Assembly: GCA_019237325.1 (NCBI GenBank) | Contig: JAFAHI010000744.1 | Coordinates: forward strand, 1 to 33,131 | DNA from: Verrucomicrobiota bacterium | GTDB taxonomy: Bacteria > Verrucomicrobiota > Verrucomicrobiia > Chthoniobacterales > JAFAMB01 | Direction: 5' to 3' | Length of the DNA stretch: 33,131 nt | Shown: one piece after another, positions 3,265 to 19,737 of the stretch | How positions within the stretch are numbered: the stretch's first letter is position 1 | Layout of the letters: each line of letters starts with the position of its first letter | Program-made: the position numbers and the translations under genes | The notes under the pieces: generated by a model | Seen by the model: the letters and a program-made list of their open reading frames with translations, nothing else | The model's database searches: none | Told to the model about the DNA's origin: nothing

Positions 3265-5169
3265 ATGGACTTAGAAGATGGTATAGAACGCGCGCAGTCC
3301 GCTCTATTTAGCCTGCAGCGCCCGGAAGGGTATTGGCTTGGGGAATTGGAGGGAAATTCTACACTCTATTCCGACTATATGGCCTTTATGCATTGGTCGG
3401 GAGACGTCCACCCCGAGCGGCAAAAAAAATGTGTCGAGCACCTGTTGGAAAACCAATTGGAAAACGGCGGCTGGAGCATTTATCGGGGCGGCCCAGCAAG
3501 ACTTGATCCTTCTGTAAAGGCATATTTAGCACTTAAGCTGGCAGGTTTTGAAAGTAGTGCGCCCCGGTTGCGGAGAGCCGCTGATCTCATTCGTAAGTTC
3601 GGTGGAATTGCCAACTCCCGCTATTACACCCGGTTCTATTTGGCTCTACTGGGACAAGTCGCGTGGAGTAATGTCCCATCGATACCGGTGGAGCTGGTGT
3701 TACTTCCCAAATGGTCCCCCATCAATCTGTATTCAATGTCTGCCTGGACGAGAGCCATCGTGGTCCCCATGGCGATCGCGCATCACTTCCAACCGACCCG
3801 GCCGATTCGGTTCGCCCGCGGCGTTTCGGAGCTTTATGTTTCGCGACCCAGGAACAACCATACCTGGAAAGATAATTGGTTCGAGGGAGCATTAATACTG
3901 TTGGAACGTCTGCAGCGCGGCGGCTTTCTTTCTTCACACGAATCAGCCTTGATGGCCTCTGAAAGATGGATGCTCGATCGCCTTAACCTGGACGGCAACG
4001 GATTAGGCGCCATTTTCCCGTCTATCCTGCACGCATTAATCGCATTGAGGTGCTTGGGTTACGACCACACGACTTCTGTATATCAAAAAGCTGAAAAGGC
4101 ACTGGAAGGGTTGTTTGTTAATGATGCCAAAGGGTTCCGTATTCAACCCTGCTTATCCCCAGTATGGGATACGGCACTCAGCACAATCGCCTTGGTCGAG
4201 TCGGGTGTGGCGCCGGACGATTCCAGGATCCAGAAGGCCGCCAATTGGTTAACTAGCCACCGAGTAACCACCAAAGGAGATTGGGCTGTCCGTATTCCAA
4301 ATATAGAACCGAGCGGGTGGAGTTTTGAATTCAAGAACTCTTATTATCCCGATGTTGATGATACGGCCATGGTGTTACTCGCTCTGAGCTCAGCAGTTGG
4401 GCCGCGCGAACACCTAATGCAGAAGAGCCTTGATTGGCTCTTGAGCTTCCAATGTCGCGATGGAGGGTGGGCGGCCTTTGACAAAGATGTGCAAAACCCG
4501 CTACTCAAGTACCTGCCATTTGCGGACCATCGAGCGATTCTCGATCCCAGTTGCCCGGATATTACGGGGCGCATTTTGGAAGCTCTTGCTAATTTTCGAA
4601 TTGGCATAGCGCATCCGAGCGTTCGCAAAGCCGTACGATTTTTAAGGGCAAAGCAGGAAGATGATGGATCCTGGTACGGACGTTGGGGGGTTAACTACAT
4701 TTACGGGACGGCGCATGTGCTTCGCGGTGTTCGCTCCACTGGAATCGATATGAACCAAAAGTGGCTTGCGAAGGCACGGCGCTGGGTCGAAGCGCATCAA
4801 AACTCTGATGGTGGTTGGGGTGAAAGCTGTGCTTCCTATCTGGACGTCACAGAGAAGGGGAGAGGAGAAAGTACCGCGTCACAAACAGCTTGGTCGCTTA
4901 TGGGGCTATGCGCATTCCCGGATGTGAACCGGAAGAGCATCGCCCGCGGAATCGAGTTCCTTTTGCATCGACAAAGACCGGATGGGACATGGGACGAGGA
5001 CCTACAGACAGGTACAGGATTCCCGAGCGTATTATACCTGCGATATGATTACTACCGAATCTATTGGCCTCTACGCGCATTATCAATTTACGCGGCAAAC
5101 GTGAAAAGGCGGGAAGAAAATACGCGTGCGTCGATCGATAGCGGTCCGGTAGTTGGTGTCTGGTCGTAG
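3265..5169 (+). CDS. shc: Squalene-hopene cyclase
   Basis: This 634-aa terpene cyclase converts squalene to hopene/hopanol for hopanoid membrane lipids; the family is membrane-associated (monotopic). The catalytic aspartate motif DVDDTA (D363 to D366) sits where family members carry DxDD. QW repeats typical of the double alpha-barrel are spread along the chain, for example QLENGGW, QCRDGGWAAFDKD, QEDDGSWYGRWG, QNSDGGWGES and QRPDGTWDED. The N-terminus (ALFSLQRPEGYWLGELEGN) is a normal family start, which supports ATG 3265. Length fits the bacterial family. No other hopanoid genes (hpnCDE, hpnH) are nearby, so squalene supply must be encoded elsewhere. The stop codon lies inside a short segment also found at 30690-30717, so the last few residues may derive from a repeat. 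Confidence 0.97.
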   Translation: MDLEDGIERAQSALFSLQRPEGYWLGELEGNSTLYSDYMAFMHWSGDVHPERQKKCVEHLLENQLENGGWSIYRGGPARLDPSVKAYLALKLAGFESSAPRLRRAADLIRKFGGIANSRYYTRFYLALLGQVAWSNVPSIPVELVLLPKWSPINLYSMSAWTRAIVVPMAIAHHFQPTRPIRFARGVSELYVSRPRNNHTWKDNWFEGALILLERLQRGGFLSSHESALMASERWMLDRLNLDGNGLGAIFPSILHALIALRCLGYDHTTSVYQKAEKALEGLFVNDAKGFRIQPCLSPVWDTALSTIALVESGVAPDDSRIQKAANWLTSHRVTTKGDWAVRIPNIEPSGWSFEFKNSYYPDVDDTAMVLLALSSAVGPREHLMQKSLDWLLSFQCRDGGWAAFDKDVQNPLLKYLPFADHRAILDPSCPDITGRILEALANFRIGIAHPSVRKAVRFLRAKQEDDGSWYGRWGVNYIYGTAHVLRGVRSTGIDMNQKWLAKARRWVEAHQNSDGGWGESCASYLDVTEKGRGESTASQTAWSLMGLCAFPDVNRKSIARGIEFLLHRQRPDGTWDEDLQTGTGFPSVLYLRYDYYRIYWPLRALSIYAANVKRREENTRASIDSGPVVGVWS

Positions 5170-5482: not shown

Positions 5483-6637
5483 CTAAACTGCAGCTGCTAA
5501 CTCTCTCGCTCCGTTATTCTGTGGCGACACCGGGCGGCTGACATGGCTTGCAGCCAGCTTATTGTAGAGAGTGAGTGCCGCCCCGACAACCTGGTCCATA
5601 TTGTAGTAACGGTAGGTGGCCAATCGACCAACAAAATAAACGTTTCGAACAGCCCGGGCAGCCTCTGAATATCGTTGGTACAGTTCCGCGTTCGCCGGGC
5701 GCGGGATCGGATAGTACGGGTCTCCGGTGGCCTCCGGATACTCATAAATGATGCTGGTTTTTGAATGTTCCTGCCCGGTCAAATACTTCATCTCAGTGAT
5801 CCGAGTAAAAGCATGTTCATTCGGATAGTTGACAACTGGCGCCGGTTGAAAGATGGGGCGATCCAACGTCTCGTGTTGGAAGCGCAAAGATCGATAGGGG
5901 AGCTCACCGAACTGGTAATCAAAGTATTCGTCGATCGGGCCGGTAAAAATCAGGCGGTCATAACTAATGGCGGATTTCACCTCTCTATAGTCAGCGTTCA
6001 AGAGGATGTTGATATTTTTGTGGTCGAGAAGATTCTCAAATAAGCGCGTGTAACCATGCCGTGGCATGCTTTGGTAGCAGTCGGTGAAATATCGGGTATC
6101 TCGGTTTGTGCGCACCGGAACTCGGGCGGTAACACTGGCATCGAGATCAGAGGGATCTAGCCCCCACTGTTTACGCGTGTAGCCGCGGAAGAATTTCTCG
6201 TACAATTCACGTCCGACCTTGCTTAGAACAACGTCTTCACTGGTACTGATTTTCGGGCGGGACTCAGCCCGCGACTCTAGGAACCCGGCAATCTGATGAG
6301 CTGAAAGATTGGTTCCGTATAGCTCGTTGATGGTATCGAGATTGATAGGAATTGGAACGAGTCGCCCATCAACGCTAGCCAGTACGCGATGCTCGTACTT
6401 TCTCCAGGTGGTAAACTGGGAAAGATAGTCAAAAATCTGCTTCGAGTTGGTGTGAAAGATATGAGGACCGTATTTGTGTACCAAGATGCCGGCATCATCG
6501 TAATGGTCATAAGCATTTCCACCGATATGGTTGCGGCGTTCGACCAGCAAAACCCGCTGTTGAGCGTTGCGGGCGAGTCTCTCGGCCAGAACGCTGCCGG
6601 CGAACCCGGCGCCGACGATGAGATAGTCAAACTTCAT
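5483..6637 (-). CDS. glf: UDP-galactopyranose mutase
   Basis: This 384-aa flavoenzyme interconverts UDP-galactopyranose and UDP-galactofuranose, supplying the precursor for galactofuranose-containing surface glycans. The N-terminal dinucleotide motif GAGFAGSVLAERLA (residues 9-22) binds FAD. It is followed by the family hallmarks RNHIGGNAYD, KYGPHIFHTN and FFRGYTRKQWG, and a C-terminal GRLATYRYYNMDQVVG segment. The length is normal. It is the last gene of a tight minus-strand operon, starting 5 nt after the stop of the glycosyltransferase at 6643-7842. The neighbours (glycosyltransferase and ABC exporter) suggest the galactofuranose is used in a glycan assembled by this cluster. Confidence 0.96.
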   Translation of the reverse strand: MKFDYLIVGAGFAGSVLAERLARNAQQRVLLVERRNHIGGNAYDHYDDAGILVHKYGPHIFHTNSKQIFDYLSQFTTWRKYEHRVLASVDGRLVPIPINLDTINELYGTNLSAHQIAGFLESRAESRPKISTSEDVVLSKVGRELYEKFFRGYTRKQWGLDPSDLDASVTARVPVRTNRDTRYFTDCYQSMPRHGYTRLFENLLDHKNINILLNADYREVKSAISYDRLIFTGPIDEYFDYQFGELPYRSLRFQHETLDRPIFQPAPVVNYPNEHAFTRITEMKYLTGQEHSKTSIIYEYPEATGDPYYPIPRPANAELYQRYSEAARAVRNVYFVGRLATYRYYNMDQVVGAALTLYNKLAASHVSRPVSPQNNGARELAAAV

Positions 6638-6642
6638 TGTAG

Positions 6643-7842
6643 CTATCCCGCAATCATCGGCAATGCTTGGCCTGAGGGTGATGCCGATGATCTCGCTGCT
6701 GTGCGCGAAGAAAGAACGTCCCAGATATGCCGTTCCAGGTTCTCCACTACTTGTTCCCAGGTATTTCTTCTGGCGACCTCTAAAGCGAGCTTCCGAACAG
6801 CCAGGTCAGAACAACGACAGACGTTTTGGCATTGTTCAACAAATTCGGTGTGACTGTGCGCAATTTTTACGAACTCCGAGAATTGGAGCATCACATCGGC
6901 AATCGCTGTGGAAATCACTGGTCGACCAGTTGCTAAGTATTCGAGCACTTTGGTCGGATTAACGAACTCAGTTGCCGGATTTAACGCGAATGGAAGCAAG
7001 CAAACGTCAAAAACCGCAGCGTAGTTCGGCAATTGGTCGTAAGATCGCTTGTCTAAATAATGTAGATTGGGACGCTGGGGGAAATGGGCTGGATCAACCT
7101 TCGTCCAAGGGCCAATCAGCACAATGCTGCCGGTCGAAAAAGCATCGGCTAATTCGGCTAATAATGCGTAATCCATGCGTTCATCGATGACACCGAAGAA
7201 ACCAAGGATCGGTTTCGGTAAATTGGCTACGTCGACGGGTCGCTGGATCGTGGGATCCATGGCTTTGCCGAAATGATCTGCGTCAACTCCGCATCCGTAA
7301 ACGAAGGTATTGGCGTTAAATTTCCGCTTCTCCGCGCCTAACTTGGGACCTCCAGCGAAAACAATATCGGCGACTTCCAGCAAGTGCCGCTCTCGTTTAA
7401 CTAGGACGTCGGGTGCGCCTTTAAATTGGCTCAACTGGTCCATACAATCGAACACGATGGCTTGTTCGTTCATATGGCCGGCGAAAGCGGTGACTGCCAT
7501 CGGGTCGTAAAACCACTGGATTGGTTCTTGAAAGGAGGCTCCTAATGGTCCTGCTAAAAGCTCTTGTACCAGACGCCGGCGTTCATTATCGACCCAATCG
7601 CCATCAAACCACTTTGCTCCGGGCATCCTCATCCGGACCACGATAACATTTGAATAATCCGCGGCCGGCCGAGCCTCCAGGCGGGATTCGTCGAGGTTCT
7701 CCTCGGGCAAAGGGCCTTCTATGAATAAGACAGCGTGCCGCTGAGACAGCCGCGACATGAACTGCTGAGGACGTTGCCATACCCAGTCCCATCCCAAATG
7801 TGAGTGCACTATAATTGGATATTCGCGCTGGAGTAAGTTCAT
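6643..7842 (-). CDS. GT-B glycosyltransferase (group 1 / GT4-like)
   Basis: This 399-aa protein has the two-Rossmann layout of GT-B enzymes. The N-terminal half carries HSHLGWDWVWQRPQQF, a motif seen in bacterial glycosyltransferases annotated as TuaH-like or group 1. The C-terminal half has GVDADHF, LGFFGVIDERMD, IVLIGPWTKVDP and the nucleotide-sugar binding helix NPTKVLEYLATGRPVIST with its conserved glutamate. No signal peptide or membrane segment is seen, so it should act on the cytoplasmic face. Its ATG overlaps the stop of the ABC exporter by 4 nt and its stop is 5 nt from the mutase start, which implies one transcript. The donor sugar cannot be read from the sequence; galactofuranose is plausible from the adjacent mutase. 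The C-terminal half of the fusion protein at 9913-12309 is a divergent relative. Confidence 0.85.
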   Translation of the reverse strand: MNLLQREYPIIVHSHLGWDWVWQRPQQFMSRLSQRHAVLFIEGPLPEENLDESRLEARPAADYSNVIVVRMRMPGAKWFDGDWVDNERRRLVQELLAGPLGASFQEPIQWFYDPMAVTAFAGHMNEQAIVFDCMDQLSQFKGAPDVLVKRERHLLEVADIVFAGGPKLGAEKRKFNANTFVYGCGVDADHFGKAMDPTIQRPVDVANLPKPILGFFGVIDERMDYALLAELADAFSTGSIVLIGPWTKVDPAHFPQRPNLHYLDKRSYDQLPNYAAVFDVCLLPFALNPATEFVNPTKVLEYLATGRPVISTAIADVMLQFSEFVKIAHSHTEFVEQCQNVCRCSDLAVRKLALEVARRNTWEQVVENLERHIWDVLSSRTAARSSASPSGQALPMIAG

Positions 7843-9827
7843 ACTGATCCATTTCGTTTCCCATTGAACTGGCTGGTCTTGCCGGACGCCTGGTGTTCAA
7901 CTGATTTTAGGTCGTTTGCTATTGATTGGTCCTTAGTTTCTCGATGCAGGGCTACTCCGTTCGGAGCGTGAAAATTTGGATTTGGTGGCCCGATGTCGAA
8001 TTTATCCGAATCCACCATATCCTTGAACAGCCCTGGCGTTAGACTCAGTTCCTGAAACGTACCGTCCTGAACGATCTCGCCATCGGCAATCACGAGGATG
8101 CGATCACAATGTTTTATCGTCGAGAGCCGATGGGCGATTAAGATTGCCGTTCTACCCACTAAAATGCGACTTAACGCCTGCTTCACCAAACGTTCACTGA
8201 CTGTATCCAGAGCACTCGTGGCTTCATCGAATAAAAGGTAGTCAGGATTATGTAGGAGCGCCCGGGCGATAGCTAGACGTTGACGTTGTCCTCCGGAAAG
8301 CCGCACGCCGCCTTCGCCAACGAGTGTATTTAGACCATGAGGAAGGGCTCTAATGAATTCCCAGGCATTGGCCGATTCACAGACTTCCAACAGCCGTTCG
8401 TTGGAGCAATGACGGTCGATCAGTGTGAGGTTATCGCGAATGGTTGTAGCGAAGAAATAGGGATCCTGCGGCACAACACCGAAATGGCGGCACACGTCTC
8501 GCGGCGAGCAATTCCGAAGATCGACATCCCCAAAGGAGATACTCCCCGACTCGGGGTCATAGAGTCGCAGGAGCAGCTTCGCCAACGTGCTTTTTCCAGA
8601 TCCACTCGGTCCCACAAAAGCGACGCGTTGTCCGAATGGAATCGATAACGTGATGTCGCGAAGAACAGTTGTTCCGGGATTGTAAGCGAAGCTAACTTCT
8701 CGAAGAACAATATCCGCTTTGGTAGGCGGATTTAGCCGGAGAGCAGGAACCGGTTCAGGGGTGCTACTCTGCGCGCGAAGGACCTTTTGCAGTCTGGTGA
8801 AACTGGCCTCGGCCTGACCATGCATAGTGCCCACCGTAAAAAGGACGGTTAGTGGCTGGTAAAGCGACAGGTACGCGGCGAGAAATCCCATCAATTGCCC
8901 GGAGGTAATGTGGCCGGTGAAATATCGCCAAGCGCCCAAGCCGCAAAGCAATGCGAAACAGATATAGCCGAGTCCTTCTGCTCGCATATTCACGCGGTGC
9001 GTACCGACATCGCGTTCATATGCTTTCTCTCGCAAACAATCTACGTTCTCTTTGAAGGCAGAGTTAATTTGCGGTTCGATTCCGTGCATCTTGATATCTC
9101 GATTGCCTCGGAAGATGTCGACAACCCGTCCGATGATCCGGCTTTCCGCCGCTTGATATCCTTGGAACAAGCTACGGAGTTGGAGGCTGCTATACCGGGC
9201 GGTCAGCGCTGTCGCGATCACCAGAGTGACCAACACCGCGGTTAAGCTCCAATCCCAAAAGAAGATCCAGGCACAGGCCACTACCACCATGGTGGCCGCG
9301 TTGGGCACGTTGATCACTGCGCTGTGAAAAAACTTAGCAATTTCCTGTAAGGGCGACCCCATAACATTAGTAAACAATTCTCCGCTCGAGTGCCGGTTAT
9401 GGAACCTGAGGCAGAGCCCATTAATGTGTTCGAAGAAACGCGCTCGCAGGTCGAGAACCACGTGTTCCCGGATACGAGTAAAGATCCGGTAACTGGCGTA
9501 CCAAGCAGCCATGCGCAGCACAAAGGCCGCGACCAGATAAAGGCTTAGTAAAATCGTAAGCCGGACAATTCGTTCGTTTGCAGGGAGCCCCTTCGGTGTC
9601 AACACATCATCTATCAGATACTTCGGCGCCAAGGTCTGAAAAGCGATGGCAACCCCAGGCAAACAATTCAAAGCGAACGCGAACAACAATAGCCGTCGGT
9701 GCCGGGCTGCATATGGCCAGACAAAACCTAGTAAGTTTTTCGGAATCTTTGCGTCATGACCGTTCCCTTTCGGTTGCTGATTCGCAGCGAACGAAGGACT
9801 CCTCAATGTTTCTGAATGCGCCCACAT
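7839..9827 (-). CDS. MsbA-like ABC exporter (fused permease and ATPase)
   Basis: This is a 662-aa half-transporter. Residues about 35-335 form the six-helix exporter membrane domain, and about 372-610 the ATPase. Walker A is GPSGSGKST (406-414), the signature is LSGGQ (510-514), Walker B is LLFDE (531-535) and the switch histidine is in IAHRLST (H566). All catalytic residues are intact, so a homodimer should be active. The tail of about 45 residues is polar. It is the first gene of the exporter / glycosyltransferase / mutase operon, so the likely cargo is a lipid-linked sugar or glycolipid. The start at 9827 leaves an N-terminal extension of about 30 residues; a later start is possible. Confidence 0.92.
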   Translation of the reverse strand: MWAHSETLRSPSFAANQQPKGNGHDAKIPKNLLGFVWPYAARHRRLLLFAFALNCLPGVAIAFQTLAPKYLIDDVLTPKGLPANERIVRLTILLSLYLVAAFVLRMAAWYASYRIFTRIREHVVLDLRARFFEHINGLCLRFHNRHSSGELFTNVMGSPLQEIAKFFHSAVINVPNAATMVVVACAWIFFWDWSLTAVLVTLVIATALTARYSSLQLRSLFQGYQAAESRIIGRVVDIFRGNRDIKMHGIEPQINSAFKENVDCLREKAYERDVGTHRVNMRAEGLGYICFALLCGLGAWRYFTGHITSGQLMGFLAAYLSLYQPLTVLFTVGTMHGQAEASFTRLQKVLRAQSSTPEPVPALRLNPPTKADIVLREVSFAYNPGTTVLRDITLSIPFGQRVAFVGPSGSGKSTLAKLLLRLYDPESGSISFGDVDLRNCSPRDVCRHFGVVPQDPYFFATTIRDNLTLIDRHCSNERLLEVCESANAWEFIRALPHGLNTLVGEGGVRLSGGQRQRLAIARALLHNPDYLLFDEATSALDTVSERLVKQALSRILVGRTAILIAHRLSTIKHCDRILVIADGEIVQDGTFQELSLTPGLFKDMVDSDKFDIGPPNPNFHAPNGVALHRETKDQSIANDLKSVEHQASGKTSQFNGKRNGSV

Positions 9828-9912
9828 CCGTAGTGAGGATCGAAATTAGGACGTGATGTGGACGTGGCAGTACCACCCTGATTGGCAAACTTTTCAGAAA
9901 TAAGGGCGAAAC
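9828..9912. promoter_or_regulatory. Divergent promoter region of the glycan cluster
   Basis: These 85 nt separate the exporter operon (minus strand) from the hydrolase-glycosyltransferase fusion (plus strand), so promoters for both must lie here or in the gene ends. GGACGTG occurs twice within 20 nt (9852-9871). I cannot assign -35 and -10 boxes with confidence. Confidence 0.35.
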
Positions 9913-12309
9913 ATGGACAGTCTCCAGGGTTATCAATTTCGTTGGGCTAGCGGTATAGAAGGGTCGGTCATACCTCACCTCGGTATCGATCAGTTTGCTT
10001 GGACTCAGCACGATCGTTTCTGGCGACAGGATCTCGCATTAGCTGCGCAAGACCTGGGTTGTGTGTGGATCCGCTATCCCCTGGTCTGGACTCGGCTGGA
10101 ACCTGAACCTGGACAATTTAACTGGGATTGGGCAGACGAACGACTTGAGGCGGCGGCGAAAGCGGGTCTCAATCTGATCCTGGATCTGGTGCATTTCGGT
10201 GTTCCTGAATGGCTCCCGGAGGCAGTTGGCGATATCGATTTCCCGCGTGCGTTGGAACGCTTCACCGAAGCGTTCGCCGATCGTTATTCAGGCCATCCTG
10301 CGATTGCGAGTATCTGTCCAGTCAATGAACCTTTGACCACGGCTTTCTTCTGCGGTGATGCGGGTCTCTGGCCGCCTTTCGGTCGCGGCCTACAGGATTA
10401 CATGACCGTTCTTCGTCAAATTGCGGAGGCGCTCGTACGCTCGATTCGAGTGCTTCGAGCAAAAATGCCGGGCACTGAAATCCTGATGTGCGATTCGCTG
10501 GAGGTTGCCACAACGGAGGAGCCGAGCTCCAGCGAGAGAACAAGCCCTTTTTTGCTGGAGTCCCTTGGCGCAGATGTTGCCCGGCGGATGGAACGCCGGC
10601 ATTTGGCGGTCGATCTGGTCACCGGCCGAGTTGGGCCGCGCCACTTTCTTTGGGATTGGCTTCGTCAAAACGGATTCTCCCGAATCGATCTCCTTTGGTT
10701 CCGCCAAAACGCTCAGGAGGTCGATGTAATCGGACTAGATTACTATAACCATACCGAGGTCGAAATCCTTACCTCTCCTGAAGGTCATTACTTACAACGG
10801 ATCGCGCGCAATCCTCTCGGGCTGTACCGAGCCGCTCAGGATTATTGGCATCGATATCACCGCCCGCTAATGATTACGGAAACCAGCGCCACCGGATCGA
10901 ATCAGATGAAGCTAGATTGGCTAGAACGGTGTGTTTCCGATATTCGAAGACTGCGCGCGGACGGTTTTCCGGTTATCGGGTATACGTGGTGGCCGCTTAT
11001 CGACCATTTGGACTGGGACGGCGCCATGCGCCATCAAACAGGGCATATTCATCCCGTAGGCATCTATGCTTTGAGACGAGAAGCTGACGGGACGTTGCGA
11101 AGAGAAGCGACTGAGCTAACGAAAGCCTACCGCCAGCTCGTCGCTGGTGCCGATGAGAGCTCCGGTCCGCTTCGGCTTAATAAAATCGATAAGAGACAAT
11201 CGATCCTCACAAAGACTAACCGCCGAGGGGACAATAACGGTGAGCCAGTGGGGCGCCCGATCCTGGCGTTTGGCAGTGAACGTTGGAGCGAGGTGTGGCG
11301 AAGAACTAACTATTTGCTGGCGGCGTTAAGCCGGCGTCATCTGATTGTTTATCTGTCGATCCGCCGTGGGTTTACCGGAACAGAACCTTCGGTTAACCTG
11401 GTTCATCCAAGACAAAACCTTATTGCAGCGACTCTCACTGTCGCGGCAACAGGCGATCCGGACGGTCTGAAGAATCAAGCGCTCTTGCAGCAGTTAATCA
11501 CTTACCTATTGCGGAGCCCGAGCCAAGAGCCAGCTGTCTGGTATGCAGATCTTCCGGCCTATAAAGACTTTGGTTCTTTATTCCCGAGTGGACGTAAGAT
11601 CCTCGATCTCGACTCGACCGACCCCACTAGCGAGGATTCGGTCGCTGCCATCCGGCGCATCGATGCCGTTCTTCTTCGTTGCCCGACCCAGATCCACTCC
11701 ATCCCAGAGGAGTTTGGCAGCAAGGTCTTGTTGGTCGAGGATGGCGTCGATCTTAGGTTTATTAAGGCTAGGCGACCGAGAACGGTGTTGCCTACGGACA
11801 GCCGTTTCATCCGCCGACCAGCTCTGGGTTTCATTGGTAGTATTGATTCGAGGATTGATCTCGAACTGATTGACCGGCTAGCCGAGACGACATCACTGTG
11901 GACCATCGTCATGATCGGGCCAGTTCGGGATATTGCGCCAGAAATTCTTCCTCGAAGGGAAAATATCTATTGGATTGGAGCTCGGGACCATTCTCTTTTG
12001 GGTAATTACTGCCGTGGGATGGATGTGGCGATCCTGCCATTCAAGACCAATCAACCACGGCAAACGCTGCCAACGCAGCTTCGGCAGTCTCTGTTGGCGG
12101 ACCTGCCGGTTGTGGCATTAGGGCTCGCCTCTTTGGAACGTGATTACTCGGGCTGGTTTGATTCTGCCAACTCGCATGATGAATTCGTCGATCTCTGTCG
12201 CCAGCGTTTAGAGCAAAAGGAACCAGAAAGACGAGCGAAACTACGGAAACTCGTGGCGAGCCGCAGCTGGAACCAGGTGGCCCGAGAGGTGGAAGCGGTT
12301 GTCGGTTAG
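9913..12309 (+). CDS. Glycoside hydrolase (GH1-like, clan A) fused to a degenerate glycosyltransferase
   Basis: This is a 798-aa two-part protein. Residues 1 to about 410 form a retaining TIM-barrel hydrolase: the acid/base is E139 in CPVNEPLTTAFF, the candidate nucleophile is E323 in RPLMITETSATG, and the WIRYPLVWTRLEPEPGQFNW segment is typical of beta-glucosidase-like families. After a linker, residues 447-798 align by eye with the neighbouring glycosyltransferase (6643-7842): ERWSEVWRRTNYLLAALSRRH against the WQRPQQ region, GVDLRF, LGFIGSIDSRID, IVMIGPVRDIAP and the C-terminal SRSWNQV. The donor-binding helix, NPTKVLEYLATGRPV in the neighbour, reads LPTQLRQSLLADLPVV here, so the conserved glutamate is lost. 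There is no signal peptide, which is unusual for a hydrolase and suggests action on a cytoplasmic glycan intermediate. It is divergent from the exporter operon. The second half may be a binding or regulatory domain rather than an active transferase. Confidence 0.85.
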   Translation: MDSLQGYQFRWASGIEGSVIPHLGIDQFAWTQHDRFWRQDLALAAQDLGCVWIRYPLVWTRLEPEPGQFNWDWADERLEAAAKAGLNLILDLVHFGVPEWLPEAVGDIDFPRALERFTEAFADRYSGHPAIASICPVNEPLTTAFFCGDAGLWPPFGRGLQDYMTVLRQIAEALVRSIRVLRAKMPGTEILMCDSLEVATTEEPSSSERTSPFLLESLGADVARRMERRHLAVDLVTGRVGPRHFLWDWLRQNGFSRIDLLWFRQNAQEVDVIGLDYYNHTEVEILTSPEGHYLQRIARNPLGLYRAAQDYWHRYHRPLMITETSATGSNQMKLDWLERCVSDIRRLRADGFPVIGYTWWPLIDHLDWDGAMRHQTGHIHPVGIYALRREADGTLRREATELTKAYRQLVAGADESSGPLRLNKIDKRQSILTKTNRRGDNNGEPVGRPILAFGSERWSEVWRRTNYLLAALSRRHLIVYLSIRRGFTGTEPSVNLVHPRQNLIAATLTVAATGDPDGLKNQALLQQLITYLLRSPSQEPAVWYADLPAYKDFGSLFPSGRKILDLDSTDPTSEDSVAAIRRIDAVLLRCPTQIHSIPEEFGSKVLLVEDGVDLRFIKARRPRTVLPTDSRFIRRPALGFIGSIDSRIDLELIDRLAETTSLWTIVMIGPVRDIAPEILPRRENIYWIGARDHSLLGNYCRGMDVAILPFKTNQPRQTLPTQLRQSLLADLPVVALGLASLERDYSGWFDSANSHDEFVDLCRQRLEQKEPERRAKLRKLVASRSWNQVAREVEAVVG

Positions 12310-12334: not shown

Positions 12335-12537
12335 GGTAGCGGCGACTGTCTATGAGGCTATATCGTATGCCTCGGTCCTATCATCTTAACGGAGAGACGG
12401 GCGTGCCTAAGCTCAACGCGCAGTCGCCATTCGAGCGTTAATGGCGACTGTGTTCTCAGGTTATTCACACCTGCAGCTTCGATATAATCTTGGCTTTAAT
12501 GCACACCATTTCGGCCTCACGGACAGTCGCCGCTACC
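12335..12537. mobile_element. 203-bp terminal-inverted-repeat element, copy 1
   Basis: The ends are 24-nt inverted repeats beginning GGTAGCGGCGACTGTC (12335) and ending GACAGTCGCCGCTACC (12537), with one non-complementary position. Inside, GCAGTCGCCAT and ATGGCGACTG flank a loop that contains CGAGCGTTA, so the core GCGACTG occurs four times in alternating orientation. A second copy at 19537-19737 is about 80% identical by eye, with the termini and internal stem best conserved. It codes for no protein; an ATG at 12441 inside it is in frame with the HlyD gene but is not that gene's start. A MITE-like non-autonomous element is the simplest reading. No obvious target duplication is seen. Confidence 0.7.
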
Positions 12538-12540
12538 GAA

Positions 12541-12603
12541 CTGCCAACCGCCAACGGCAAACCGCCAGCCGCCAACCGCCAACGGCAAACGGCAAACTCT
12601 CAA
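12541..12603 (+). repeat. Heptanucleotide tandem repeat (CCGCCAA / CGGCAAA)
   Basis: Nine consecutive 7-nt units run from 12541: CTGCCAA, CCGCCAA, CGGCAAA, CCGCCAG, CCGCCAA, CCGCCAA, CGGCAAA, CGGCAAA, and a degenerate CTCTCAA. The array starts 3 nt after the terminal-inverted-repeat element and ends 44 nt before the HlyD start. Such arrays can change length by replication slippage and would alter the leader or promoter spacing of the efflux operon, but no promoter elements are recognised here. Confidence 0.75.
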
Positions 12604-12647
12604 CCGGTTGCGACCCGAAAGCCGCTGATTTGCGATCTAGAGCAGTC

Positions 12648-14015
12648 ATGAGCAACGGCGGTGTTTCGGATTCCAGGGATAGTCAAGACGGTCCATCCGA
12701 TAATTTCGGGGACCGACTTGATCGGATTGCGGCGGCGCTCGAGAGACAGAATGAGATTTCTCAGAAGCATGCTGGAGATGGCAACCAAGAGAAAGACAAA
12801 GGCGATCGGAAAGGCGGTGAAGGCGAGAAGAAGCAAGGGGAAGGGAAAAAAAAGAAAGGACTTATCCAGAAAATTGGGGGCAAGCGCACCCTCATCATTG
12901 TGGGGGCGATTATCCTGCTCATCGTTATCTTTTTCGGAGTTCGATACTGGATGTATGCATCGAGCCACGAGACCACGGATGATGCTTATACGGCGGGCCA
13001 CACTCATCAAATTAGCCCCCGCGTAACCGGCACCGTTGAGGAGGTGCTGGTGGATGACAATTGGTATGTGAAGGCAGGTCAACCCCTGGTCCGGCTGGAT
13101 CCTAGCGACTATCAGGTCGCATTGCAGCGAGCGCAGGCGCAGCTAGAACAATCGCAAGGCCAAGCATTGCAAGCACGAGCAACTGTTGCTCAAGCCGCAG
13201 CAGACTTGAAGCAGAGACAGGCTCAGGTGACGCAGAGCAACGCGCAAGTGGGTCAGGCTAGCGCCCAGCTGGAAATCGCGCAGATCAATTTCGATCGGAA
13301 CAGTCAACTCTTCCAGCGAGACATGAAAGCGGTGGCGAAGGCGGATGTCGATTCTACCAAAGCAACGCTTGATTCGGCTAGGGCGAATCTGGAGGCAGCC
13401 AAAGCAACGGTTGATTCCAATGCAGCGGCCGTAGAGACCTCAAAAGCGGATCTGCAGAGCGCGCAGGCGCAGTTACAAAGCGCTGATGCTGCGGTGGCCG
13501 CAGCCAAGGCTGCCGTGGCCAATGCTGAGCTTCAGCTTGCCTATTGTACAATTCCTTCCCCGGTCAACGGACGGATAGCTCAGAAAAGCGCCGAGCCAGG
13601 AAACCAGGTCCAACCTGGAGGGGCCCTGATGGCTGTCGTCGAGGATAATGTGTGGGTACTTGCCAACCTTAAAGAAACGCAGCTCAAGAGGGTTCAGATA
13701 GGCCAGTCCGTCGAGGTTAACATCGATGCGATTCCCAGCCATACCTTCACCGGTAGAGTAGACAGCCTGCAGCCGGGAAGTGGCTCAAATTTTGCCCTGT
13801 TACCACCCGATAATGCGACGGGAAACTTTATTAAAATCGTGCAGCGAATACCGGTCAAAATCGTATTCGATCCGGAGAGTATACGCGACTTTAAATCGAA
13901 AATAGTTCCTGGTCTGTCGGCTGAGCCAAGCATCGACGTCAGCAATTATGATGAGAAACACCCGCGATCCACGCAGGTACCTGGGACGGAAAGACAATCG
14001 GAGCATGCCCAATGA
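12648..14015 (+). CDS. HlyD/EmrA-family membrane fusion protein
   Basis: This periplasmic adaptor (455 aa from ATG 12648) links the inner-membrane pump to the outer-membrane channel. It has a short cytoplasmic tail with a Lys/Glu-rich stretch (about 48-70), one membrane helix (about 81-99), then the family entry motif ETTDDAYTAGHTHQISPRVTG. A biotinyl-lipoyl-like half follows (VDDNWYVKAGQPLVRLD), then a long Ala/Gln-rich coiled-coil hairpin of about 180 residues, and the returning lipoyl half with IPSPVNGRIAQKSAEPGNQV. An in-frame ATG at 12441 lies in the repeat element and reads through the heptanucleotide array, so I chose 12648. The stop overlaps the next start by 4 nt (ATGA), pointing to translational coupling with the outer-membrane gene. 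Confidence 0.92.
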   Translation: MSNGGVSDSRDSQDGPSDNFGDRLDRIAAALERQNEISQKHAGDGNQEKDKGDRKGGEGEKKQGEGKKKKGLIQKIGGKRTLIIVGAIILLIVIFFGVRYWMYASSHETTDDAYTAGHTHQISPRVTGTVEEVLVDDNWYVKAGQPLVRLDPSDYQVALQRAQAQLEQSQGQALQARATVAQAAADLKQRQAQVTQSNAQVGQASAQLEIAQINFDRNSQLFQRDMKAVAKADVDSTKATLDSARANLEAAKATVDSNAAAVETSKADLQSAQAQLQSADAAVAAAKAAVANAELQLAYCTIPSPVNGRIAQKSAEPGNQVQPGGALMAVVEDNVWVLANLKETQLKRVQIGQSVEVNIDAIPSHTFTGRVDSLQPGSGSNFALLPPDNATGNFIKIVQRIPVKIVFDPESIRDFKSKIVPGLSAEPSIDVSNYDEKHPRSTQVPGTERQSEHAQ

Positions 14016-15730
14016 CTAGGTGGCTCTACGCTTTCCGTTATGAGTGCGCAGCGGCTCGCCGGACACGGTCACTAAAGCCGCGTCCGGAGACGAATCGGCC
14101 TGAAATTAAGTTCCTCAAGTTGGACAAGGCTGTCTCGTCGACAGCATCAACATTGTCGGCGTTCTCCGCTCTGTTTATTTCCGGATGCATGGTCGGCCCG
14201 AAATACCATGGACCACCGGCGGAAACGACCGCGGATTTGCCAGGAAAATATAAGAACGGAACAACTCAGAATGGACATTGGAAGACGCCGGAGCCGCGAG
14301 ACACCGAAGGGGCTGGAGATTGGTGGCGGATTTTTTCGGATCCAACGCTTGCCCGTCTTGAGAGTCAGGCGGTGGCAGGCAATCAGAATATAAGGCTTTC
14401 TATTGACCGAATCGATGATGCCCAAGCCCAGATGCGGATTGCGGCTGCTGATCTTTATCCCAATCTTGCACTATCGTGGAGCGGAACGAAAGCTCGGACT
14501 ACATCCACCGGGCCGGTGGAATCCGCTCGAATTGTCGGTAGCGCATCTTCCCTGAGCGGGGGTGGTAGTAGCGGCGGCAGTAGCAGTGCACCGATGCCGG
14601 TTTATTCAGGCTCGAGCGGCCCCGTTTTTTCTAGCCAACCCATCTCGATGACTGCTTGGGATTTTCGTCTGCCGGCGGAACTCCGTTGGGAATTGGATCT
14701 GTTTGGGCGGGTGCGGCGCAATGTCGAGGCAGCTCGGGCTCAGACAGAGCAGGCCAGGGCGGATTTCGAGGCGGCTTTGCTAAGTATAACGGCGAATGTG
14801 GCGGCCCAGTACTTCACCCTTCACGCGCTAGATGCCCAAATCGCAATTTTGGAACGCACAATCTCGACTAGGGAAAGCTACCTCCGCATTGCGGAGGAAC
14901 GTCTGGCCGCCGGACTCGTGAATGAGCTGGATGTTGCTCGAGCCCGATCTGAATTAGCAACAAACCAAGCCGATCTGTATGCTCTTCGTCGCTCTCGAGG
15001 CGAAATCGAAAACGCAATCGGCACTCTACTTGGCGAGCCGGCTAGTAATCTGCGTCTTCCCGCTGAGGGGATCGCGTCTGCTCCGCCGGCGATTCCAGCA
15101 GGGCTTCCCAGCAGACTATTGGAGCGCCGGCCAGACGTGGCCTCAGCGGAACGGAGTGTCGCCGCGGCCAATGCACGGATCGGCGCCGCGATAGCCGCTT
15201 TCTTTCCTGATGTGACGATCAACGGTGCGAGCGGATTTGAGACAGCAAATATCGGCGACATGTTTGCAGGGCAAAGTTTGATATGGTCGGTCGGCCCAAG
15301 TGTCAGCGTACCAATCTTTGAAGGGTTCCGTTTACGAGCGGGAGTAGAGAGCGCCAAAGCGCAGTATCGGGAGACCGTCGAAAACTACCGCGGCCAGGTC
15401 TTAAACGCGTTTCAAGACGTGGAAAATGCGCTGATCGACCTCAGAACTTTAGCAGGTCAATGGGAGGCGCAACAAAGCGCAGTGGACTCAGCTCAGCGGA
15501 CCTTAGACCTCAGCCGTGCGCAATATGAGAAAGGAGCCGTGACGTATCTAGACGTCTTGGACGCAGAAAGAACGTTATTGGCCGATCAAGAAGTGTCTGC
15601 TCAGCTTTCCGGCGCGAGGCTGCAAGCCTCGGTACAACTAATTAAAGCGCTGGGTGGGCGGTGGGGTCGTGAATACAACCGGCCGAAAGCTCCGGTGATC
15701 GCGTTGCCAGGGAGATCAAAGAATGGCTGA
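14012..15730 (+). CDS. NodT-family efflux outer-membrane lipoprotein
   Basis: This 572-aa TolC-like channel subunit belongs to the NodT / OprM group. The lipobox LFISGC places the acylated cysteine at about residue 59, followed by MVGPKYHGP, a classic start of mature family members. Two outer-membrane efflux repeats follow, with WRIFSDPTLARLESQAVAGNQ in the first and DVASAERSVAAANARIG opening the second half. A Gly/Ser/Pro-rich insertion lies near residues 175-210. The roughly 40 residues before the signal peptide are long for a lipoprotein; a TTG at 14120 would give a conventional signal, but the ATGA overlap with the HlyD stop favours 14012. It overlaps the following MFS gene by 8 nt, so the three genes form one operon encoding a complete tripartite pump. 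Confidence 0.92.
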   Translation: MTRWLYAFRYECAAARRTRSLKPRPETNRPEIKFLKLDKAVSSTASTLSAFSALFISGCMVGPKYHGPPAETTADLPGKYKNGTTQNGHWKTPEPRDTEGAGDWWRIFSDPTLARLESQAVAGNQNIRLSIDRIDDAQAQMRIAAADLYPNLALSWSGTKARTTSTGPVESARIVGSASSLSGGGSSGGSSSAPMPVYSGSSGPVFSSQPISMTAWDFRLPAELRWELDLFGRVRRNVEAARAQTEQARADFEAALLSITANVAAQYFTLHALDAQIAILERTISTRESYLRIAEERLAAGLVNELDVARARSELATNQADLYALRRSRGEIENAIGTLLGEPASNLRLPAEGIASAPPAIPAGLPSRLLERRPDVASAERSVAAANARIGAAIAAFFPDVTINGASGFETANIGDMFAGQSLIWSVGPSVSVPIFEGFRLRAGVESAKAQYRETVENYRGQVLNAFQDVENALIDLRTLAGQWEAQQSAVDSAQRTLDLSRAQYEKGAVTYLDVLDAERTLLADQEVSAQLSGARLQASVQLIKALGGRWGREYNRPKAPVIALPGRSKNG

Positions 15731-17279
15731 AGCCGGAGACGAGTTAGTTAGTTTTCGTACTTGGATCGCTGTGCTCGGTACCATTCTCGGCGCCTTCATG
15801 GCGGTGCTCGACATCCAGATTACCAATTCTTCCTTGAGAGAAATCACAGGAGGGATTGCTGCAACTTCAGTTGAAGCCTCCTGGATATCAACCTCCTACT
15901 TGATCGGTGAGATCATCACGATTCCGCTCACCGCTTGGCTGTCGCGAGTTTTTGGCGTCCGTTGGTACCTGGTTGGCAACGTCTTGCTCTTTCTGCTGTT
16001 TTCTGGTCTCTGCGGTACCTCCACCGAATTGACGCAAATGGTGATTTATCGATCGCTTCAGGGATTCACCGGTGGCGTCATGATCCCAATGTCGTTTGCG
16101 GTGGTTAACACCAAGTTACCTCCATCGAAAAGGCCGTTAGGGCTGGCGCTTTTTGGCGTCACGGCGACCATGGGACCGGCCATCGGACCTTACGTTGGAG
16201 GATATCTGACGGACGTTTTTGGGTGGCAGATGGATTTCTACATTAATTTCTTCCCTGGTGCTCTGATGCTGGCTTCGGTTCTCTATGCGATTGACCCGCA
16301 ACCGTTGAATCTTAAACTCCTGAAGCAGGGTGACTGGTTCGGGATCGCGGCCATGGCAATCGGTCTTGGCTCTTTCATCGCCTTTCTAGAGGAAGGCCAA
16401 AATGAGGATTGGTTCACGAGTGTCTTTATCCAACGTTGCTTCGCGTTGGCCGTCATCTTTATTCCAACCTATTTAATTATAGAGTTAGTCCGAAAGCATC
16501 CTGTGGTTAACCTTCGGCTGTTGACCAACCGTAATTTAGCTTTGAGTTGCGTGGTGAACTTTGTTATGGGCGCAGCCCTGTATGGCTCGGTTTATTTGTT
16601 GCCCCAGTATATGGAGCAAGTGCAACAATACAGCGCCAGCCAGACCGGTGCCGCTATGGTGTTAATCGGATTGCCCCAACTCGCGATATTTCCGTTTGTG
16701 CCCCGGTTGATGAAGATCTTCGATCTGCGTTTGCTGGTATTTGTGGGCGCCGCCATTTTCGGAGCTAGCTGTTTTCTCAATACGCATATGGCGACGGAGT
16801 CTGGCGGCCCGCAATTCCAGCTGGCTAATCTGGTGCGGGCAATTGGTCAGCCATTCACGATTGTGCCGCTCTCTGCCATTGCCACGGCGGGTCTGGCAGC
16901 GCGAGATCAGACGGATGGATCGGCCTTATTTAATATTCTGCGCAACTTAGGCGGTAGTGTCGGTACTGCTCTGCTCAGCACGATGATTACACAGCGCGAG
17001 CAGTTTCATGATGAGAGGATCGGAGAGAGTGTCACCCCTTATAGCCTCTACGTTCAAGGGTTTCTTCGGGTGCAGTCATCGCAGAACTTGCTACATGGTG
17101 GAGATCCGCACTTGGCGATGATGCGGGCGTACAAAACGCTTCAAGCCGCAATTCAGGGGCCATCCTTTGTAATGGCTTTCAGCGAATGTTTCCTAATAGT
17201 TGGCTCCTTGCTTTTGGCGGGTTCAATACTGATCTGGTTTTGTCGAAAACCGAATCCGGAAGCGTCGCCGGGTGAATGA
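15723..17279 (+). CDS. DHA2-family (EmrB/QacA-type) MFS drug:H+ antiporter
   Basis: This is a 518-aa inner-membrane transporter with about 14 predicted hydrophobic segments. It opens with the helix-1 motif TILGAFMAVLDIQITNSSL, where the D1 motif LDIQITN is typical of EmrB-like pumps, followed by SWISTSYLIGEIITIPLTAW. The helix-4 and helix-5 region shows the antiporter motif GPAIGPYVGGYLTDVFGWQ. It is the third gene of the HlyD / NodT / MFS operon and overlaps the NodT stop by 8 nt. The natural substrate is unknown; EmrAB-type systems extrude hydrophobic compounds. A hairpin-cluster repeat follows the stop codon by 66 nt. Confidence 0.94.
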   Translation: MAEAGDELVSFRTWIAVLGTILGAFMAVLDIQITNSSLREITGGIAATSVEASWISTSYLIGEIITIPLTAWLSRVFGVRWYLVGNVLLFLLFSGLCGTSTELTQMVIYRSLQGFTGGVMIPMSFAVVNTKLPPSKRPLGLALFGVTATMGPAIGPYVGGYLTDVFGWQMDFYINFFPGALMLASVLYAIDPQPLNLKLLKQGDWFGIAAMAIGLGSFIAFLEEGQNEDWFTSVFIQRCFALAVIFIPTYLIIELVRKHPVVNLRLLTNRNLALSCVVNFVMGAALYGSVYLLPQYMEQVQQYSASQTGAAMVLIGLPQLAIFPFVPRLMKIFDLRLLVFVGAAIFGASCFLNTHMATESGGPQFQLANLVRAIGQPFTIVPLSAIATAGLAARDQTDGSALFNILRNLGGSVGTALLSTMITQREQFHDERIGESVTPYSLYVQGFLRVQSSQNLLHGGDPHLAMMRAYKTLQAAIQGPSFVMAFSECFLIVGSLLLAGSILIWFCRKPNPEASPGE

Positions 17280-17662: not shown

Positions 17663-19492
17663 ATGGCAGAAGAATCCAACAAGTCGTCAAATGCGACCCC
17701 GAGCCCGTCAAAATCTGGTGCCTCGCCGCGGCTGGGACCGCAGATCTTAATGATGTCCCGTGCCTTATTCGCATCGCCGCAACGCAATAAGATTATATTT
17801 CTGGCTATCGCTTTAGTCGCGGTTATTGGCGCAACTGCTTATGGTCAAATCAGGCTTAATGCTTGGAACCAGCCTTTTTACGACGCGCTTTCCCGTAAAA
17901 ATATCGGAGCATTTTTTTCTCAACTCATCGTTTTTGGTTTTATTGCCTGCGGCCTTTTGATCCTGAACGTCGCCAAGACCTGGTTCAGCCTAAAGTCCAC
18001 GATCGTACTCCGCGAAGGCCTGGTGCGGGATCTGTTTGATCAATGGCTCAAACCGGGACGGGCCTTTCGTCTCTCAGACGCCGGTGACATTGGCAATAAT
18101 CCGGACCAACGCATTCACGAGGATGCCCGTCATCTATGCGAACTGTCAGCATCACTCGTTATCGGACTCTTGGAGTCATCGCTCCTCCTTGGCAGTTTTA
18201 TCGGCGTCCTGTGGATGCTCTCTGGGAATGTGACCTTCCATTTCAACGGACGGAGTTTCGGCATTCCGGGATATATGGTTTGGACTGCTCTTATCTACGC
18301 AGGCACGGCCTCTTGGCTCAGCTGGCTTGTAGGCCGTCCGCTGATTCAGCTGAATGCGCAACACTACGCCCAGGAAGCGGAATTGCGCTTCGCACTGGTG
18401 TGGCTCAACGAACATATTGACAGCGTCGCGCTATATGGCGGCGAAGATGATGAAAAGCAGCGCCTTGGGGTTGCTCTTGAGACGGTGCTGCGGATTATGG
18501 GACGAATCGTGGGCGCCAGCACCCGGCTCACCTGGATCACATCGGGTTACGGTTGGTCCACGATTGTTGTGCCCATTCTCCTCGCTGCTCCTGGATACTT
18601 CGGGGGCGGCCTTTCATTCGGTGCGTTAATGATGTCGGTCGGCGCCTTTAACCAGGTGCAACAAGCCCTTCGCTGGTTTATCGACAATTTCAATGCCATT
18701 GCCGATTGGCGCGCCACATTGCTGCGTATCGCCACCTTCCGGCAAGCGTTGGTTGCAGTCGAGACGGTTGGCGCGAACGAAAAACAGATCGAATTTTCGG
18801 AGGCGTCTGATAACAAAATCGTACTCGAGAACCTGGAGATCGCGACCCCGACCGGATGCGCCAAGCTGGATCAGCCGCATGTCGAGATTGCGCAAGGTGA
18901 GCGCGTACTCATTTCGGGTGAGTCCGGCGCCGGCAAGACGATTCTTTTCCGAACGATCGCCGGTCTGTGGCGCTGGGGGATGGGCCAGGTCACGCTTCCT
19001 AAGGGGCACGCGGTAATGTTCATGCCGCGCCAGCCCTATGTACCTTTGGGAACATTGCGAGCGGCGTTGGCCTATCCGTCCGACCAGGTTTCACACAGTG
19101 ACGAAGAGCTGGCAGCCGCGCTTCGATCGGCAGGGTTAGATCGTTTGAGTTCTGCAATCGACCACGTCGAGCGCTGGGATAAAGAGCTTAGTTTTGATGA
19201 ACAACAACGCTTGGTGTTCACGCGTATGCTGCTCCACAAACCTCACTGTGTCGTGATTGACGAAGCGCTCGACACCTTGGATGACGCAACTCGGGAATGC
19301 ATTATCCAGTTGCTAAATAGCGAGATGAAAGACACGGCCGTTATCAATATCGGCCGGGCCGCCTCAAACGATCATTTTTTCACGCGAATTCTCAAGCTTA
19401 TCAAGGAACCGGCTGGAAGGTGTTTTATGCCCGACCTCAGTTCCTATGGCTTCGGCCGGACAGCGGAAGCGGTGGGCAGTTCTGGCGGGTGA
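17663..19492 (+). CDS. YddA-like ABC half-transporter A (SbmA/BacA-type membrane domain plus ATPase)
   Basis: This is a 609-aa protein of the ABC_membrane_2 type. Residues about 40-350 form the SbmA/BacA-like membrane domain with family motifs WNQPFYDALSRKN and NNPDQRIHEDA. The ATPase spans about 385-590, with Walker A GESGAGKT (419-426) and an intact Walker B glutamate in VVIDE (E534). The signature reads LSFDEQQ, with D512 where related proteins have glycine, and the switch histidine is replaced: NIGRAAS puts R565 where GHR is expected. These changes should damage its own ATP sites as a homodimer. The paralogue at 21885-23651 has the reciprocal defect. Relatives are linked to peptide or cobalamin transport, but the substrate here is not readable. 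The start ATG 17663 has only a weak AGG upstream. Confidence 0.88.
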   Translation: MAEESNKSSNATPSPSKSGASPRLGPQILMMSRALFASPQRNKIIFLAIALVAVIGATAYGQIRLNAWNQPFYDALSRKNIGAFFSQLIVFGFIACGLLILNVAKTWFSLKSTIVLREGLVRDLFDQWLKPGRAFRLSDAGDIGNNPDQRIHEDARHLCELSASLVIGLLESSLLLGSFIGVLWMLSGNVTFHFNGRSFGIPGYMVWTALIYAGTASWLSWLVGRPLIQLNAQHYAQEAELRFALVWLNEHIDSVALYGGEDDEKQRLGVALETVLRIMGRIVGASTRLTWITSGYGWSTIVVPILLAAPGYFGGGLSFGALMMSVGAFNQVQQALRWFIDNFNAIADWRATLLRIATFRQALVAVETVGANEKQIEFSEASDNKIVLENLEIATPTGCAKLDQPHVEIAQGERVLISGESGAGKTILFRTIAGLWRWGMGQVTLPKGHAVMFMPRQPYVPLGTLRAALAYPSDQVSHSDEELAAALRSAGLDRLSSAIDHVERWDKELSFDEQQRLVFTRMLLHKPHCVVIDEALDTLDDATRECIIQLLNSEMKDTAVINIGRAASNDHFFTRILKLIKEPAGRCFMPDLSSYGFGRTAEAVGSSGG

Positions 19493-19536: not shown

Positions 19537-19737
19537 GGTAGCGGCGACTGTCCATGAGGCTATATGGTATGCCCCAATTTATCATCCTAACGAAGGGACA
19601 GGTGTATCTAAACTCAACGCGCAGTCGCCATCCGAGCGTTAATGGCGACTGCGTTCTCAGGCTAGCAACACCTGTCGCTTCGATATCAGCACGGTTTTAA
19701 GACACACGGTCAGGCCTCATGGACAGTCGCCGCTACC
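19537..19737. mobile_element. 201-bp terminal-inverted-repeat element, copy 2
   Basis: The 24-nt termini 19537-19560 and 19714-19737 are perfect inverted repeats, extending to CCGG at the outside (19535-19739). The internal stem pairs GCAGTCGCCAT with ATGGCGACTG across a loop. It is the relative of 12335-12537. It fills the gap between ABC half-transporter A and the GH43 gene, and its right end supplies the GH43 stop codon and last codons. No coding capacity is present. Confidence 0.75.

Follow-up and report, generated by a model that had tools for sequence, protein, structure and literature searches.

A single open reading frame of a Verrucomicrobiota bacterium joins a glycoside hydrolase family 1 (GH1)-type barrel, with both catalytic glutamates intact, to a degenerate glycosyltransferase (GT) domain that resembles the GT-B type, and it faces an operon that encodes a UDP-galactopyranose mutase (glf), an intact GT and an ABC exporter. 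We refer to the whole stretch of DNA analysed, 33,131 nucleotides of contig JAFAHI010000744.1 (assembly GCA_019237325.1), as the window. We propose, at slightly less than even confidence, that the fusion is a cytoplasmic GH1 enzyme that trims or transglycosylates during the assembly of a galactofuranose-type glycan and whose pseudo-GT serves for docking or binding; what we infer is the substrate, the reaction and the docking role. The features of the locus are as follows.

5483..6637, minus strand: glf, UDP-galactopyranose mutase (TIGR00031, 397.4 bits, above the cut-off of 303.75)
6643..7842, minus strand: intact free-standing TuaH-like GT-B glycosyltransferase, 399 aa (71/73 near-invariant residues)
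7839..9827, minus strand: MsbA/HepA-like ABC exporter with fused TMD and NBD, first gene of the divergent operon
9828..9912, no strand: divergent intergenic region of 85 bp, between the ABC gene and the fusion
9913-12309, plus strand: GH-GT fusion open reading frame, 798 aa, ATG start, internal stop absent
9913..11157, plus strand: GH1-type (beta/alpha)8 barrel half, residues 1-415 (Pfam, fold and conserved Glu pair)
10327-10329, plus strand: codon of catalytic E139, within the GH1-type half
10879-10881, plus strand: codon of catalytic E323, within the GH1-type half
11158..11250, plus strand: low-confidence linker, residues 416-446 (AF2 pLDDT <50 for 424-443)
11251..12306, plus strand: degenerate GT-B-like (TuaH-like) half, residues 447-798

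An earlier note, made from the letters alone, had described one two-domain chain, and this is confirmed by the open reading frame, the Pfam match of the first half, the AF2 model of the full chain (mean pLDDT 82.5, pTM 0.56) and the match of the second half to the neighbouring GT. An assembly or sequencing artefact that joined two genes is ruled out by the occurrence of the single reading frame in seven other MAG assemblies and in more distant ones. The halves are not separate genes in close relatives, an outcome that the note had allowed for; the fusion instead recurs in other Verrucomicrobiota. The absence of a signal peptide, also claimed earlier, agrees with hydropathy analysis, in which the N terminus lacks a hydrophobic stretch, as it does in every relative examined.

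Full-length fusions with 45-50% identity were found in seven others among 213 genomes of the same order, and an eighth relative (G457) has the fusion split across contig ends. The fusion-bearing relatives fall in two families (f1 and f5). A first contig scan with a single protein as query gave no match; a scan of named genomes gave back the loci already identified, as Verrucomicrobiota MAGs. Neither the fusion nor the GT is present in three sampled genomes of the genus to which the window belongs, so the locus is patchy in distribution. An extended reading frame in L085 that resembled a 1203-aa fusion looks spurious: nothing in the query set matches its first ~800 residues.

Where contigs allow, the orthologous fusions face the same operon. 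One locus (L072) has glf, GT and ABC genes opposite the fusion in the order seen in the window; on shorter contigs, the fusion is accompanied by GT and ABC genes (L071), the GT gene (L074) or the ABC gene (L073, L076 and L078), with a contig edge close on the operon side in L071 and L074. The MsbA/HepA-like ABC gene thus adjoins the fusion in five of these loci (L071, L072, L073, L076 and L078). In the window, the ABC and GT genes share 4 bp, and the divergent operon described in the earlier note is borne out as glf-GT-ABC, with an intact GT. The AF2 model of the free-standing GT matches GT4-type enzymes at Z 25-33, and a sequence search of the PDB with the GT family gave no match.

Other genes surround this locus. 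A squalene-hopene cyclase gene (3265-5169; hopanoid synthesis) lies near the glycan operon. Directly downstream of the fusion is a multidrug-type efflux operon (12441-17279) that encodes EmrA, a NodT-type outer-membrane channel and EmrB; it was ruled out as part of the system, with no match beside the fusions in L071-L078. Further on, two SbmA/BacA-type ABC proteins (17663-19492 and 21885-23651) flank a GH43 arabinanase-like gene (19717-21750).

The N-terminal half is a GH1-type domain by several lines of evidence. It matches Pfam Glyco_hydro_1 (PF00232) at 1.4e-12 and 47.2 bits, above the cut-off of 22.6; a profile search of solved structures places it among GH1 beta-glucosidases (best E 1.2e-39), and Foldseek does likewise (E 8.5e-22). 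The modelled fold of residues 6-418 aligns with solved GH1 enzymes at Z 37-38.7, with the best match to TmGH1 (2j7h_A; Z 38.7, 376 residues); the Thermotoga maritima beta-glucosidase structure 1od0 (PDB) aligns over 374 residues at Z 38.5 and an rmsd of 2.6. Sequence identity to solved GH1-fold structures is about 14-22%. The catalytic pair named in the earlier note is intact: E139 and E323 align with the GH1 acid/base (NEP) and nucleophile ((I/V)TE) motifs, and each of the eight aligned fusions has N138-E139-P140 and T322-E323-T324 unchanged. The fusion differs from the Thermotoga enzyme in its C-terminal GT half and its biosynthetic neighbourhood. By alignment, the glycon-binding glutamate of the conserved GH1 W-x-x-x-D-N-x-E-W motif falls at D367, a position that varies across the aligned relatives; glycon recognition would then probably be unlike that of classical beta-glucosidases, and the aspartate is a weak hint of a sugar other than the usual glucose or galactose pyranosides.

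The C-terminal half (447-798) is 28% identical to the product of 6643-7842 (E 1e-30), and in the full-chain model it forms two alpha/beta subdomains with an order of elements that resembles the intact GT. It has no match among Pfam models. For both the fused half and the free-standing GT, the best named model is that of the TuaH glycosyltransferase of teichuronic acid biosynthesis (NF047676), in which membership is ruled out, as they score 67.6 and 72.5 bits, respectively, against an equivalog cut-off of 550. The fused half further differs from TuaH in having lost the catalytic residues: S455, D673, Q717, Q722 and Q725 stand for conserved H, K, E, K and E, the last three of these in the donor-site motif, from which both glutamates are gone. 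Missing too are the N-terminal H-L-x-W..W-Q-R-P-Q-Q motif, D-C-M-D and the lysine before V-D-P. Of 96 columns that are invariant in six intact relatives, the fused half retains 37 and replaces 59. Across a set of 73 near-invariant columns, it retains 33, which places it among the most degraded of the degenerate halves of the eight fusions (32-49); on the same columns, the free-standing GTs of fusion-bearing genomes score 71-73 and the fused GTs of G162, Comamonas and Pantoea 67-70 (67 in G162). The earlier view of a degenerate GT half is upheld.

The note had also pointed to loss of the conserved donor-site glutamate. That holds for the window copy and is particular to the window genome, as the glutamate at 725 is retained in 7/7 other full-length orthologues (for example, PGKVYEYL), in which the rest of the GT half is degenerate; the orthologue of G447 lacks the donor-site lysine as well. 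Across the full-length fusions, most of the GxxDxR, GP and N-[YF]-W-x-G-x-R core is kept. In the window genome, the GT half is most likely non-catalytic. Could the half still be a transferase with altered donor or acceptor chemistry, making the chain bifunctional? The glutamate kept by the orthologues, mostly together with the DER motif, would fit such an activity, as would the intact fused GTs of more distant genomes (G162, L093, L094 and Comamonas). We regard it as quite improbable, given that glutamine replaces the donor-site lysine and both glutamates in the window and that the acceptor-side motifs are absent across nearly the whole clade.

The two halves have diverged at different rates. 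Identity to the window among orthologues is 58-67% for the GH half and about 29-43% for the GT half (local alignment), and the corresponding branch lengths in the trees are 0.33 and 2.0. Pairwise dN/dS (Nei-Gojobori; pairs with finite dS only) is 0.16-0.38 for the GT half, compared with 0.05-0.18 for the GH half and 0.08-0.12 for the free-standing GTs. The GT half is therefore under relaxed but real purifying selection, and dN/dS together with the intact reading frame disfavours a decaying pseudogene. The same figures bear on a simpler explanation, in which the GH acts by itself and what was a GT domain persists as a tolerated relic that merely folds and stabilizes the chain, with no binding role. 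The long GT-half branch is in keeping with a relic, as is the dN/dS of this half in close pairs of family f1, which exceeds the GH-half value by a factor of 2.5 to 4.6, and shared new conserved motifs in the GT half were not identified. We nonetheless find a relic unlikely: dN/dS is well below 1 in every measured pair, the eight full-length fusions are free of stop codons and truncations, and the core motifs described above persist. It is from purifying selection combined with motif loss that we favour a pseudo-GT kept for binding or docking.

Loss of the catalytic residues coincides with the presence of a second GT. The fused GT is intact in G162 and in two MAGs, one of Verrucomicrobiales (L093), with glf after the fusion, and one of Phycisphaerae (L094), with a GH2 gene before it; no free-standing GT orthologue was found in the genomes with an intact fused GT (G162, G603 and G604; n = 3), and the L094 genome has a weak partial GT match (28%) apart from the fused GT. 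Where the fused GT is degenerate, a free-standing intact GT that is 60-100% identical to that of the window is present in 8/9 genomes. The exception is G453, in which none was detected; this genome has a completeness of 82%, and the start of its fusion lies 195 bp from the end of a contig. Degeneration of the fused GT is thus suggestively linked to a free-standing intact copy; the link does not represent independent events because all of the degenerate cases belong to one clade, and the comparison of this clade with three other genomes, in mostly incomplete drafts, comes near to a single evolutionary contrast.

The GH halves of the eight fusions form one clade (99/98), with L093 as sister (99/99), followed by G162, L094 and a Chloroflexi MAG (91/96). 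Because the GH halves of the Comamonas, Chimaeribacter and Pantoea fusions branch elsewhere, in a separate clade (100/100), the GH1-GT fusion probably arose at least twice. The fused GT halves cluster apart from the free-standing GTs, on long branches. The description of the fusion as lying beside its intact paralogue, which suggests local duplication, is not supported: the tree test rejects a grouping of the fused halves and the neighbouring GTs to the exclusion of others (p-AU 0.008, a result qualified by the long branches), and recent duplication of the 6643-7842 GT was discarded on the same test. Descent from a fused GT like that of L093, tested as a clade with it, is not rejected (p-AU 0.27). 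A single clade of all fused GTs of Verrucomicrobiota and Phycisphaerae is disfavoured (p-AU 0.019), which may reflect either several fusions or long-branch distortion.

The association of GH1-type proteins with glf and a GT extends well beyond this order. A tblastn search of plasmid records gave 167 matched records, in many of which glf is annotated between GT-like and GH-like pieces. The order GT-glf-GH1 occurs in Ensifer, Mesorhizobium, Deinococcus and Chryseobacterium. Comamonas antarctica encodes a GH1-like barrel fused to a TuaH-like GT (WP_244146392) adjoining glf, and in Chimaeribacter arupi (WP_304483827; L043:7980-11771) a 1263-aa chain of GH1-like barrel, TuaH-like GT-B and flavoprotein is followed by an MsbA-like ABC exporter. 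This flavoprotein is of the PRK07208 type, and the models used do not identify it as a true Glf. Both resemble the window fusion in architecture and differ from it in being an independent fusion, of another GH clade, with an intact GT half. In Pantoea sp. SS70 (L044:7854-10298), the GH1-GT reading frame extends into the beginning of the flavoprotein domain and breaks off there, probably through a frameshift in the record; the annotation given to related Pantoea records is FAD-dependent oxidoreductase.

A second type of fusion joins the GH1-like family to another sugar-biosynthesis domain, an RmlD-type SDR rather than a GT, again beside glf and/or a GT (G178, G408 and Gloeothece verrucosa WP_013334485; L039:12121-14235, L084:7512-9665 and L047:10337-12496). 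The hosts are two Verrucomicrobiota genomes and one cyanobacterium, and in Gloeothece the adjoining GT and glf are themselves fused. Other Verrucomicrobiota have the order GT-glf-GH2-GH1, in which a ~940-aa GH2-like protein without an obvious signal sequence forms a second hydrolase inside the cassette, between glf and GH1 (L036:13943-16810, L038:9947-12790 and L039:9290-12109). None of the GH1-type proteins of the cassettes examined has a hydrophobic N terminus by hydropathy. In all, a cassette of glf, GT and cytoplasmic GH1 occurs in at least six phyla (Verrucomicrobiota, Planctomycetota, Pseudomonadota, Deinococcota, Bacteroidota and Cyanobacteriota); a Chloroflexi GH lies at a contig end. 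Both the fusion and the cassette are already visible in public annotations under generic names, the Comamonas and Chimaeribacter proteins being annotated merely as glycosyltransferase or FAD-dependent oxidoreductase, and we found no description of a GH1-GT fusion or a glf-GT-GH1 cassette in the open-licence PMC papers searched.

This distribution bears on whether the protein is an ordinary cytoplasmic beta-glycosidase that degrades imported oligosaccharides and lies next to a glycan operon by chance. GH1 enzymes are usually catabolic, and the GH43 sugar-degradation gene is about 7 kb downstream. We judge such a role improbable: the GH adjoins glf and/or a GT in six phyla, it has been fused to the GT of the pathway more than once, and its core partners in the cassettes examined in detail are biosynthetic genes, not sugar importers.

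The reading that we prefer, a trimming or transglycosylating enzyme with a pseudo-GT module, would work as follows. The Glf family supplies UDP-Galf, and the intact GT would use the Glf-derived sugar to build a cytoplasmic, probably lipid-linked saccharide. Retaining GH1 enzymes can transglycosylate, and the GH1-fold half would most likely act on this saccharide before export, either trimming or editing it or moving a sugar by transglycosylation. Of the functions put forward in the note, namely editing, length control and transglycosylation, none is singled out by the sequence results. The MsbA-like ABC protein would then export the finished glycan on a carrier; we take assembly and carrier-bound export from the GT4-like character of the intact GT and the MsbA/HepA-like exporter. 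The C-terminal half may formerly have been the pathway's own glycosyltransferase, which, with a free-standing GT of the same family present, lost its catalytic residues; it would have kept its fold and probably now has a non-catalytic function in docking or glycan binding, keeping the GH close to the assembly of GT and exporter.

A broader and more tentative reading, which we place on the unlikely side, is that in at least six phyla a galactofuranose-type glycan pathway regularly includes a cytoplasmic GH1-fold enzyme as one of its synthetic components. It would act as a transglycosidase or carry out an obligatory trimming step, having been fused repeatedly to the pathway GT, an RmlD-like domain or a flavoprotein, and the dead fused GT of the present clade would be a module for recruiting or regulating the hydrolase.

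The usual reading of a glycoside hydrolase is a degradative one. Because gene order and repeated fusion tie GH1 proteins to a biosynthetic cassette in many phyla, a GH1 enzyme that lacks a secretion signal and is linked to a UDP-Galf-type cassette suggests a role in glycan building, and such proteins, which databases often list as glycosyltransferase, FAD-dependent oxidoreductase or beta-glucosidase, may carry the wrong name. The passage from an intact fused GT to a degenerate fused GT accompanied by a free-standing one would offer a clean case of an enzyme becoming a pseudo-enzyme under selection.
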